22,973 bases of DNA from a virus. The stretch lies in IMG/VR virus record IMGVR_UViG_3300017732_000076, positions 1-22,973 of that record; one strand, given 5' to 3'. Of the stretch, positions 1,019 to 19,341 are shown in pieces; the first letter of the stretch is position 1, and the number at the start of each line of letters is the position of its first letter. The position numbers were made by a program, and so were the translations under genes. The notes under the pieces are model-generated. The model did not search any database. It worked only from the letters and a program-made list of their open reading frames with translations, and had not been told where the DNA came from.

Positions 1019-1095
1019 TTTTTTACCTATAGCTTTTTATTGCTATGTCTGACGACATATACAAAAAAATTTTAGAAGTATTTTTTTACCTATAG
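1019..1095 (+). promoter_or_regulatory. Leader region with direct repeat TTTTTTACCTATAG and two alternative hairpins
   Basis: The 14-mer TTTTTTACCTATAG occurs at 1019-1032 and again at 1082-1095, 63 bp apart, in the gene-free stretch 806-1140. Between the copies, ATAGC (1029-1033) can pair with GCTAT (1042-1046), and TATGTC (1044-1049) pairs perfectly with GACATA (1054-1059) around TGAC. The two hairpins share bases 1044-1046 and cannot both form fully. The region lies just upstream of the MscS-like gene, so a promoter or RNA control element is likely here. I see no good TTGACA box at the right distance from either TATAG. Confidence 0.4.
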
Positions 1096-1140
1096 AATTT
1101 ATCCTTAGTATGGGTGATATTTATTATTGGGAGAAAGACA

Positions 1141-1473
1141 ATGGAAGATATAAAAAACCTTGTAAATGAATATAGTTGGTTATTAGTTACTGGTGTAGCT
1201 TTACTTCTTTTTCAGAATACTATTACTGAGGTAGTAGATGGTATAATGGTGTTCTTAGGTAATGACTATAATGAAGATGATATTGTTACTGTGGATGGAG
1301 AACCTGGTCGTATAGTTAGAGTAGGGATGTGGAAAACAGTATTCTTTATATATCATATATCAAACGGTAAGATAGTTGGTGGTAGTAAGTTAGTAGTAGC
1401 AAATAGTAAACTGAAAGACCTTAAGATAGAGAAACCATTACCGAATTTTGATTTAACTAAATACCAAGATTAG
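1141..1473 (+). CDS. Small membrane protein with MscS-like beta domain
   Basis: The 110-residue protein has one hydrophobic segment (about residues 12-26). A region at about 38-100 follows whose pattern (DDIVTVDGEPGRIVRVGMWK, then a VVANSKL segment) matches the Sm-like beta domain of MscS mechanosensitive channels: a hydrophobic-D-hydrophobic strand, a G-x-V turn, a T-bearing strand and a PNS-like 'ANS' motif. Full MscS proteins have three or more membrane helices and a large C-terminal cage; here only one helix and the beta domain remain. I chose ATG 1141 because GGGAG lies just upstream; a GTG at 1114 is in frame but has no ribosome-binding site. The gene opens the envelope-protein island. 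A phage role in ion leak, membrane tension or lysis timing is inference. Confidence 0.7.
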   Translation: MEDIKNLVNEYSWLLVTGVALLLFQNTITEVVDGIMVFLGNDYNEDDIVTVDGEPGRIVRVGMWKTVFFIYHISNGKIVGGSKLVVANSKLKDLKIEKPLPNFDLTKYQD

Positions 1474-1802: not shown

Positions 1803-2135
1803 ATGAGGACACTAGCGTGTTTGTTACTGATTGGCTTGTTGACAGCCAATAACTTATCAGTAGGTAAGAGTCAGCACCCTAAAATAAAAAAACCTTTTCA
1901 TCTCACATACCATGATGTTCAGCATATAGATACAATGTCTTTTGTTGGAAATGTATTAGTAGAGTTTACTGTAGATACAGAAGGTAAAGTTACAGAACCC
2001 AATATAGTAGATACTTTTAATATCAAGTTAAACGAAACGATAATCGATAAAGTAATGTGTTTGGAATTTAAACCAGCGTTACAAAATGGAAGACCTGTTA
2101 GAGTAAGATATAAGTTACCTATATTATTTAAATAG
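1803..2135 (+). CDS. Exported protein with TonB C-terminal-like domain
   Basis: The 110-residue protein begins with a basic start and a hydrophobic stretch (MRTLACLLLIGLLTANN), a signal peptide or uncleaved anchor. Residues 48-109 carry the TonB_C pattern: GNVLVEFTVDTEGKV (49-63), a central helix ending in FKPALQNGRPV (89-99), and a final strand LPILF. In bacteria this domain sits at the end of TonB, reaches across the periplasm and touches the TonB box of outer-membrane receptors. Here the proline-rich linker is absent and the domain follows the export signal closely, so it looks like a free or anchored periplasmic TonB_C module. AGGAG lies before the ATG and a strong terminator follows the stop. 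Interference with TonB-dependent receptors, for example to exclude competing phages, is inference. Confidence 0.8.
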   Translation: MRTLACLLLIGLLTANNLSVGKSQHPKIKKPFHLTYHDVQHIDTMSFVGNVLVEFTVDTEGKVTEPNIVDTFNIKLNETIIDKVMCLEFKPALQNGRPVRVRYKLPILFK

Positions 2136-7671: not shown

Positions 7672-8247
7672 ATGTCATTAAATAAACTATATTACCTATT
7701 AGGTGTATCTACTACGGCTTTATCTGTTATGGTTTATGTAGAAGTAACAAAACCCAATATACCTATACAAACCAAAACCGAAACTGTTGTTCGTATGGTC
7801 AATGTACCATTTTCTTCAAGTGACTATGAAATACAAGCACAAGATATTAAATCTTCTTTGAATAAATCCAAGCTTAAGCATATACTTATTTACATAGAAG
7901 CTCTCTGTTGGGAGTATGGGGTTGATTATGAAATGGTTAAAGCCGTTATACAAACTGAATCCGATTGGAATCATAAAGCTGTCTCCACGAGTGGAGCAAT
8001 AGGTTTAATGCAAGTGTTACCATCTACAGCAAAATCAGAATTTAACACACCTAAACAAGACTTGTTTGATCCGTATGTAAATGTAACTGTAGGTATAAAA
8101 TATCTATCTAAGTTGGATAGTCATTTTGATGATTTAGAATCTACACTTACGGCTTATAGTCACGGTCCTACGGCTACTAAAAAGTATTCACCCTCTTATG
8201 TTAATAATAACTTTTATGTTAAACGAGTATTTAAAAACTTAAAATGA
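7672..8247 (+). CDS. Membrane-anchored lytic transglycosylase (SLT/goose-lysozyme-like fold)
   Basis: A 191-residue protein. Residues 6-23 are a hydrophobic N-terminal anchor, and 24-65 form a linker. The transglycosylase domain (about 66-190) shows the catalytic glutamate in AVIQTESDWN (E96), the GAIGLMQVLPSTA motif (108-120), and AYSHGPTAT (161-169) in place of the family's AYNAGPG. Such enzymes cleave the glycan strands of peptidoglycan. The N-terminal helix is short and rich in G, S, T and A, so a signal-arrest-release endolysin is possible, as is a tail-associated or anchored enzyme. AAGGAAC gives the ribosome-binding site. The next gene overlaps its stop (ATGA), implying coupled production of a membrane partner. 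Confidence 0.88.
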   Translation: MSLNKLYYLLGVSTTALSVMVYVEVTKPNIPIQTKTETVVRMVNVPFSSSDYEIQAQDIKSSLNKSKLKHILIYIEALCWEYGVDYEMVKAVIQTESDWNHKAVSTSGAIGLMQVLPSTAKSEFNTPKQDLFDPYVNVTVGIKYLSKLDSHFDDLESTLTAYSHGPTATKKYSPSYVNNNFYVKRVFKNLK

Positions 8248-8897
8248 ACATCGCAACAATAGCTGGTCACTTAGCATTTGGTCTTATTGCCTTTTCCTTT
8301 TTGGTCAAGGACATACTATATCTTAGAATCTTATCTATATTTGCTAGTCTATTCTCTGTACTTTATAATTTTTATATACCAATAGAACCAATGTGGTTAC
8401 CAATAGGTTGGAATATTATTTTTGTGATTGTAAATATCTATCATATATCAGTTATCATATATGAAAAACGACCAGTTGATATGACAGATAAAGAAAAAGA
8501 ATTATATGAAACTATGTTTAAGGGTTTAACACCTGTTGAGTTCTTAAAAATAACCAAAGTAGCAGAGTGGAAGAAGTTTAACACACCACTACCTATCATA
8601 ACACAAGGTAAGCCAGTAAAAGATTTAATCCTTATCTATAACGGAGCTGTTGATGTTCTTGTTAATGATACTAAAGTAGCAGAATTAAAAGATGGTCAGT
8701 TTGTAGGAGAGATGTCTTTTCTTACAGAGAAACCAGCAACAGCAACTTGTAAGGTAGAACATAATGCTGAATGTTTGGTCTGGCCTCAACAAGATTTTAA
8801 AGATTTATTAAAACGAAATCCTTCTTTGTATTTCACAATACAATCACTATTAAGTGAACAAGTTTCTAACAATTTAGTTTCAAGTTCTCAAAAATAA
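8244..8897 (+). CDS. Three-helix membrane protein with cyclic-nucleotide-binding-like (Popeye-like) domain
   Basis: A 217-residue protein. Three hydrophobic helices lie at about residues 6-22, 26-44 and 52-72, and a basic/acidic linker follows. From about 94 to 205 there is a cNMP-binding beta-barrel pattern: ITQGKPVKDLILIYNGAVDV (119-138), VAELKDGQFVGEMSFL (145-160), then PATATCKV (164-171) and a C-terminal helix. The core matches the phosphate-binding cassette F-x-GE-(hydrophobic)-S-x-L...P-R-T-A, but the arginine that normally contacts the cyclic phosphate is alanine (A165). Three helices plus this domain is the architecture of Popeye-domain proteins and of some membrane effectors with cNMP domains. 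ATG 8244 overlaps the transglycosylase stop. Ligand binding is uncertain because of the missing arginine. Confidence 0.8.
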   Translation: MNIATIAGHLAFGLIAFSFLVKDILYLRILSIFASLFSVLYNFYIPIEPMWLPIGWNIIFVIVNIYHISVIIYEKRPVDMTDKEKELYETMFKGLTPVEFLKITKVAEWKKFNTPLPIITQGKPVKDLILIYNGAVDVLVNDTKVAELKDGQFVGEMSFLTEKPATATCKVEHNAECLVWPQQDFKDLLKRNPSLYFTIQSLLSEQVSNNLVSSSQK

Positions 8898-18651: not shown

Positions 18652-19341
18652 ATGGCAACAGCAACAGTTGAAACTAATGTAGCAGGAGATTTAGTATTAG
18701 TTAAATTAACAGAACAGGTTGAATTTACTGATGAATCTATTGGAGCAGATAATGTTAGTTGGGAATTTGGTGATGGTAATACATCATCGGAAAGAAATCC
18801 AATACACAATTATACTGATAATGGAGAATATACTGTTACCTTTATTGCATTTAATGATTTTGGTCAATCTTCTACACAACAAACTATAATTGTAACTGGT
18901 ATAGGAGAAGAGATACCTAATGTTGATGAACCTAAAGATGATAATCCAATAGAGCCACCAATAAGTGATGAACCCGATGAGCCACCAATAAGTGATGAAC
19001 CCGATGAGCCACCAATAAGTGATGAACCTGATGAGCCACCAATAAGTGATGAACCAATAGATGAAGATTTAGAACCACCTACTGAACCAAGAATATCTAC
19101 AGAACCACGACCAACAAATCCACCTAGTGGATACAATCCTTTATTTGGAAATTTTAAAAGAGGAGCTACAAGTCCTGAAAGACAATGGATTTGGAGTGGT
19201 TTTATTTGGAATGCAAATCCTAATTATGAATTAGTTGAAGAAGAAGAGGAAGAAGTAATAGTTAGAGAAGAAAGAGATGAAATCGTGGTTAATAGAAGAA
19301 GGCCTAGAGATAATATCAGAGAAACAACTAGAGGTTATTAA
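18652..19341 (+). CDS. PKD-domain structural protein with EPPISDEPD repeats
   Basis: A 229-residue protein in three parts. Residues 13-82 are a PKD (Ig-like) domain with its signature WEFGDGNTSSERNPIHNYTD (37-56) and a YTVTFIAFNDFG strand. Residues 101-136 are four tandem nine-residue acidic proline repeats (EPPISDEPD). The C-terminal part holds ERQWIWSGFIWNANPNY, an acidic run and an arginine-rich tail (RRRPRD). This is the layout of a virion decoration or fibre protein: a sticky domain on a stiff linker. AGGAG precedes ATG 18652. The next gene starts on its stop (TAATG). Confidence 0.8.
   Translation: MATATVETNVAGDLVLVKLTEQVEFTDESIGADNVSWEFGDGNTSSERNPIHNYTDNGEYTVTFIAFNDFGQSSTQQTIIVTGIGEEIPNVDEPKDDNPIEPPISDEPDEPPISDEPDEPPISDEPDEPPISDEPIDEDLEPPTEPRISTEPRPTNPPSGYNPLFGNFKRGATSPERQWIWSGFIWNANPNYELVEEEEEEVIVREERDEIVVNRRRPRDNIRETTRGY
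18952..19059 (+). repeat. Tandem 27-bp coding repeat, four copies
   Basis: Units begin at 18952, 18979, 19006 and 19033 with GAGCCACCAATAAGTGATGA, continuing to 27 bp. Copies 1 and 2 are identical, copy 3 differs by one base (CCT for CCC), and copy 4 diverges in its last few bases. The unit is nine codons, so gain or loss of a copy keeps the frame. Near-identity at the DNA level suggests recent expansion. Confidence 0.95.

Follow-up and report, generated by a model that had tools for sequence, protein, structure and literature searches.

A phage protein family homologous to the pore helix and beta domain of the mechanosensitive channel MscS

Closest described systems

MscS serves as a model of membrane-tension sensing by proteins. 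TcMscS of Trypanosoma cruzi is a heptameric mechanosensitive channel that has neither TM1 nor the cage and is described, in the accessible text of PMC12334622 (PDB 9bgq, 9bgt and 9bgu), as a minimal functional unit. The same text places the gate of E. coli MscS at L105/L109 and gives A60/F64, a small residue followed by a bulky one, for TcMscS, which its authors tie to reduced hydrophobicity at the gate. As far as that text describes TcMscS, the phage protein reported here resembles it in consisting of TM3 and the beta domain without TM1 or the alpha/beta cage, in its short membrane domain, and in the small then bulky gate positions (A60/F64 in TcMscS, Gly or Ala 18/Leu 22 in the phage protein). 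TcMscS has 165 aa and keeps an N helix and TM2, whereas the phage protein has 110 aa and one predicted membrane helix; the novelty relative to TcMscS is that TM2 is lost as well. A heptameric mechanosensitive channel has been shown for TcMscS and is proposed for the phage protein. With E. coli MscS (residues ~88–187 aligned) it shares the kinked pore helix and the beta domain, but it lacks TM1, TM2 and the cytoplasmic cage, and identity in the structural alignment is ~13%.

The accessible part of PMC6163359 notes mechanosensitive channels in large eukaryotic DNA viruses, among them a virus-encoded MscS homologue of the Aureococcus anophagefferens virus; that protein of an algal virus has 261 aa and three predicted TMs and, unlike the phage protein, is not reduced to the core. 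The available portions of two further papers place MscL among the osmoregulation genes of mainly Caudoviricetes contigs (PMC13288924) and an MscS-family protein, together with YchF, RpsF and other genes, in predicted Staphylococcus aureus prophages of one clade (PMC8460829), while the portions of PMC8074189 and PMC13050327 that were available contain nothing bearing on phage MscS proteins. In the literature covered, from which most subscription journals and preprints are absent, no description of a phage family pared down to the core of MscS was found.

The gene and its relatives

The window, i.e. the whole stretch of DNA that was analysed, is a record of 22,973 bases with contractile-tail genes, among them those of a gp25-like wedge protein and of a gp6-like protein, 34.8% identical to its best listed isolate match. 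The features of the locus are as follows.

1141..1473, + strand: miniature MscS-like protein gene, 110 aa, stop codon included (ORF, relatives, model, fold matches)
1129..1133, + strand: Shine-Dalgarno-like GGGAG, 7 bases before the ATG (read from the sequence)
1171..1212, + strand: membrane segment, residues 11–24, equivalent to MscS TM3a (model, alignments, conservation)
1213..1263, + strand: second helix, residues 25–41, equivalent to MscS TM3b (model, alignments)
1282..1431, + strand: Sm-like beta domain, residues 48–97 (model, Pfam, fold searches)
1363..1383, + strand: hairpin extension, residues 75–81, a type I feature (alignments)
1432..1470, + strand: short C-terminal tail, where canonical MscS goes on into the alpha/beta cage (model, conservation)
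1020..1095, + strand: two exact TTTTTACCTATAG copies (1020–1032 and 1083–1095), a possible regulatory element upstream of the gene

The ORF at 1141–1473 is a genuine, conserved gene. An in-frame GTG at 1114 would, as an alternative start, add nine residues, but in two close relatives, L001 and L004, an ATG occupies the position of the one at 1141. The two TTTTTACCTATAG copies lie 63 bases apart, with no further exact copy in the window. The T4 late-promoter signal TATAAATA was rejected as being at chance level, with 125 matches where 127 were expected when one mismatch is allowed.

The homologue search proposed in an earlier, sequence-only reading of this DNA was productive. The single protein query found a relative in 89 IMG/VR contigs, and a search with profile A1 (39 sequences selected from 54 distinct ones among 79 loci plus the window, L065 being left out as cut) found one in 387; divergent members as queries matched 17, 10 and 89 contigs and a type II query 8, these sets overlapping. 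The two types of the family, I and II, align with an E-value of 3.2e-22. A single copy is present in each of the 12 large contigs examined (100–209 kb; two of them type II), while L047 contains one copy of each type, the second of which (L047:5685–6014, + strand) is a divergent MscS-like gene located 360 bases after the first and is the founder of the type II branch. The dN/dS ratio has a median of 0.13 and a maximum of 0.45 in the 234 of 741 pairs whose dS is unsaturated, and computation thus shows a family under purifying selection that is widespread in uncultured phages. In tblastn searches against 50,697 phage records, five of six probes had no match and the sixth gave an insignificant antisense match to one phage (two records; E 0.4).

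The profile was also run on 209 loci and the window, matching 206 records (L065, L087, L145 and L184 being without a match), and removal of two window copies and of exact duplicates of the last 200 bases left 122 distinct loci. By shared neighbours, these fall into 11 context groups of 44, 33, 16, 8, 6, 4, 3, 3, 3, 1 and 1 loci, a number that is approximate: group 1 is heterogeneous, the single-locus group L181 looks like group 4, most loci reach no further than ~5 kb to either side, and many contigs are fragments. The type II loci L210–L217 stand outside this grouping. A group 4 portal, used to seek phage kin, had no match, and a group 2 capsid was matched in 4 records at ~23–26% identity.

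With two short peptide patterns as queries, by which distant relatives would be missed, a scan of the 84,980 species genomes gave 131 pattern-bearing stretches, with a relative encoded on one contig, which belongs to a Candidatus Pelagibacter MAG. Both gene clusters flanking this copy are common to the IMG/VR loci L052, L053, L086 and L129, and the contig is therefore probably a phage contig that may have been binned with the MAG.

MscS identity, pore helix and conserved residues

The sequence-only reading had described the protein as keeping the MscS beta domain with one membrane helix and no C-terminal cage, and all three parts of this description are borne out. The only stretch of the protein without charged or strongly polar residues comprises residues 11–24; with this single membrane segment in a 110-aa ORF, peripheral helices of the TM1/TM2 type are absent. 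The ORF ends in a short tail after the strands, leaving no room for a cage, and in 116 sequences the residues following position 100 number 14 in the median and 33 at most. The AlphaFold2 model (mean pLDDT 81, pTM 0.57) has helices at residues 2–23 and 25–41, followed by strands at 48–51, 54–61, 65–74 and 77–87 and a short fifth strand at 96–97.

A structural match to the MscS beta domain was found with this model, as ranks 1–35 of the Foldseek search against the PDB are all of the MscS family (best E 6.2e-4; TM-score on the query ~0.5). In VIA-align, the first 45 rows are MscS family, with Z 8.9 and 97–101 residues aligned at 3.8–4.3 Å, while the best row outside the family has Z 6.8; residues 1–110 of the model lie on ~88–187 of E. 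coli MscS, i.e. on TM3 and the beta domain. A Z of about 9 is not high for a partly helical model and was therefore weighed together with a type II model, which was built from an alignment containing some type I sequences (pLDDT 83; helices 3–33 and 35–50). Among the matches listed for this second model by Foldseek, all 50 are MscS family (best E 1.4e-4), and in VIA-align Z reaches 10.4, the first 46 rows being MscS family. The best match of the window model in the viral structure library is an unnamed protein of 138 residues (E 1.6e-9).

At the level of sequence, the MscS family PF00924 matches the window protein below its cut-off (E 0.012; 16.1 bits against 20.2), and at E <= 1 it matches 36 of the 39 profile members, the window included, with a best E-value of 5.3e-6. 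The type II protein of L047 (24.1 bits) and the Pelagibacter MAG contig copy are above the cut-off, while the type II protein of L213 (17.5 bits) is below it. NifZ (PF04319) matches the window protein with the same E-value of 0.012, but this identity was rejected, since NifZ is matched by 19 of the 39 members against 36 for PF00924, its best E-value is 0.0089 against 5.3e-6, and the folds favour MscS. No PHROG matched the window protein at E <= 1, and the A1 profile found no MscS among PDB sequences at E <= 1 but three unrelated weak matches. Taken together, the computation shows that the family is homologous to MscS, with the order TM3a, kink, TM3b and beta domain, and without TM1, TM2 or the cage.

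The lone membrane helix is the equivalent of MscS TM3 (TM3a and TM3b) and not an unrelated anchor, which refines the one-helix description. The break at residues 24/25 aligns with the MscS Q112–G113 kink. In several VIA-align rows model residue 1 lies on MscS residue 88, and the type II protein gives a weak sequence alignment to MscS 107–170 (E 0.8–1.0); the two registers agree in placing Q25–N26 on Q112–G113, L22 on L109 and G18 on L105, and residues 11–24 are therefore assigned to TM3a, the break to the kink and residues 25–41 to TM3b. Among 109 distinct type I sequences, residue 18 (the MscS L105 position) is Gly or Ala in 108 and residue 22 (the L109 position) is Leu, Phe, Met or Ile in 108, the exception in both cases being L206, which is cut short there; in type II these positions are Ala (7/7) and then Phe or Leu (7/7). 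In 104 of 116 sequences, F24 closes a stretch of 14 residues that contains no D, E, K, R, Q, N or H, and in its shortness this apolar run resembles the membrane domain of TcMscS. Helical periodicity of conservation and hydrophobicity within residues 11–24 is not significant (4062 and 3545 of 5000 shuffles, respectively, reach the observed values), and no conserved pore-facing stripe is therefore claimed. The net charges of the 39 members, from −4 to 0 (median −2) for the N-terminal tail and from −5 to +2 (median −3) for residues 41–75, indicate no clear orientation.

Ten residues are invariant in all 109 type I sequences (D42, D46, D47, R57, R60, K83, N88, L91, P99 and L100), and the same is true of F38 and G40, which lie where TM3b ends. 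The hairpin extension contains G76, G80 and G81 in 108–109 of the 109 sequences and is missing from all 7 distinct type II sequences, although the placement of the gap varies between alignments; at this site type II has RKL, two residues of I or V, and PN, which is closer to the IPN of MscS. The many fully invariant residues within the beta domain, immediately ahead of it and in the C-terminal motif, the type I hairpin extension that type II lacks and the presence of only one short helix would all suit a membrane-anchored adaptor, in which a non-conducting MscS-derived beta domain is a docking platform on the inner membrane, its clients being, for example, other phage proteins, or its role superinfection exclusion. 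Such an adaptor, like the clients named for it, is considered rather doubtful, as F38, G40, the polar kink residue and the small and bulky gate positions are kept, none of which an anchor would need.

Conservation bears likewise on the proposal of the earlier reading that the protein co-assembles with host MscS, as a subunit inserted into host heptamers that alters or blocks gating. The core is homologous, and the Candidatus Pelagibacter MAG with the genome match also encodes an MscS of 361 aa; yet the phage family keeps its own near-invariant motifs across 11 contexts and shares 27% identity over 49 columns with that MscS, while the MAG is only a candidate host if the matching contig is a phage contig binned with it. 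Co-assembly thus gained no positive support and is judged very unlikely.

Candidate function and gene neighbourhoods

The phage protein may be an MscS reduced to its pore core that assembles with itself into a small inner-membrane pore, a reading to which we give about an even chance of being correct. By homology, the N-terminus would be outside and the beta domain inside the cell, the subunits would assemble into a ring, presumably of seven members like those of MscS and TcMscS, and the TM3a helices would line a small pore that membrane tension opens or that leaks when enough rings have formed. As a heptameric cage-less channel has been published in TcMscS, a homo-oligomeric pore would be, by this analogy, the most economical reading for the phage protein, and the small pore suggested in the earlier reading is on the same ground plausible and favoured. 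Counted against it is the loss of TM2, which TcMscS keeps and which bears on tension sensing and ring stability. A natural family consisting solely of TM3 and the beta domain would offer a direct test of whether peripheral helices are needed in assembly, conduction or tension sensing, and could show how little of MscS suffices for a pore; a likely identity is also offered for a membrane gene that is widely distributed among uncultured phages.

Gene order in some lineages suggests a late, membrane-active role without fixing what that role is; the pore may act late, bleeding off turgor or membrane potential around lysis. Neighbours of lysis type or small membrane neighbours occur in 4 of the 11 context groups and are firmly identified in group 3 only; families are named here from one representative per cluster, and the adjacency figures are raw counts within groups. 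In group 3 (16 loci), a Pam3 gp28-type holin cluster (representative PF23987, E 4.1e-14) lies divergently at −1 in 9 loci, and in 10 loci position −3 is taken by a LysM lysozyme cluster. A weak lysozyme-like gene (20.2 bits against a Pfam cut-off of 22.3) is found at −1 in 7 of the 8 group 4 loci; in all 8 the next ORF overlaps the stop codon by one base, and in 5 that ORF belongs to the portal cluster. Directly after the family gene, 25 of the 33 group 2 loci encode a one-helix protein of 61 aa (no PHROG match; a trace Pfam match to a holin family, E 0.045) or a weakly Rz-like one of 82 aa (E 5.9e-4), and the 82-aa gene follows in 3/3 loci of group 9; by longest-ORF coordinates, the following gene overlaps in 26 of 28 cases in these two groups. 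A signal-anchor lysozyme partner in group 4 was considered and rejected, as the hydrophobic N-termini lie in a stretch that, in L168, overlaps the preceding gene, which we take, from its sequence, to be terminase-like.

These neighbours could also belong with a holin- or pinholin-like lysis protein, whose pore would be the trigger of lysis and not a valve, a reading that overlaps with the self-assembling pore. We know of no MscS beta domain in S21-68, the pinholin of phi21, and homology between it and the phage MscS-like protein is not claimed. Both are small phage membrane proteins, and known pinholins form heptameric channels, of ~2 nm as reported for S21-68 in the accessible text of PMC9636201. 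A lysis trigger is nevertheless unlikely, since group 3 already has a holin, the labels of the Rz-like, 61-aa and group 4 lysozyme neighbours are weak, and in group 1, the largest (44 loci) and the window's own, no gene within three positions of the family gene belongs to any of five clusters of lysis-type or small membrane genes. An SLT enzyme lies 5.6–9.6 kb from the gene in the three group 1 records that have one (the window, G005 and G008) and ~24 kb from it in two type II records. The link to lysis put forward by the earlier reading has uneven support from gene context, with holin and lysozyme genes in one group, a weaker lysozyme in another and small membrane or weakly Rz-like genes in two, but with none in the window's group. 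Osmotic relief during DNA entry, also put forward there, is neither favoured nor disfavoured by these results. PF00959, PF01464 and PF23987 were matched in 1, 4 and 1 of the 12 large records, respectively.

The self-assembling pore might go further and represent a new class of lysis or turgor-control pore derived from MscS, namely a heptamer with a single helix per subunit, smaller than TcMscS and responsive to tension or potential late in infection, which we regard as improbable.

Several other genes of the window encode apolar or unusual proteins. A 73-aa small membrane protein (2192–2413, − strand), whose cluster occurs in 8 of the 122 loci, the window included, has no Pfam or PHROG match at E <= 1 and is a possible holin of the window's lineage. 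The gene at 1803–2135 (+ strand) encodes a protein of 110 aa that has a TonB C-terminal domain (PF03544, E 1.7e-9) and is apolar at its N-terminus, and whose cluster is found around the family gene in 7 of the 122 loci, the window included. At 8244–8897 (+ strand) is encoded a 217-aa protein with an apolar N-terminal half and matches to the Popeye-domain family (POPDC1-3, E 1.5e-14) and to a cyclic-nucleotide-binding domain (E 1.7e-14), a type of protein which is, to our knowledge, unusual for a phage. The protein encoded at 18652–19341 (+ strand) contains repeated DEPPISDEP units and is, as we read its sequence, presumably PKD-like.
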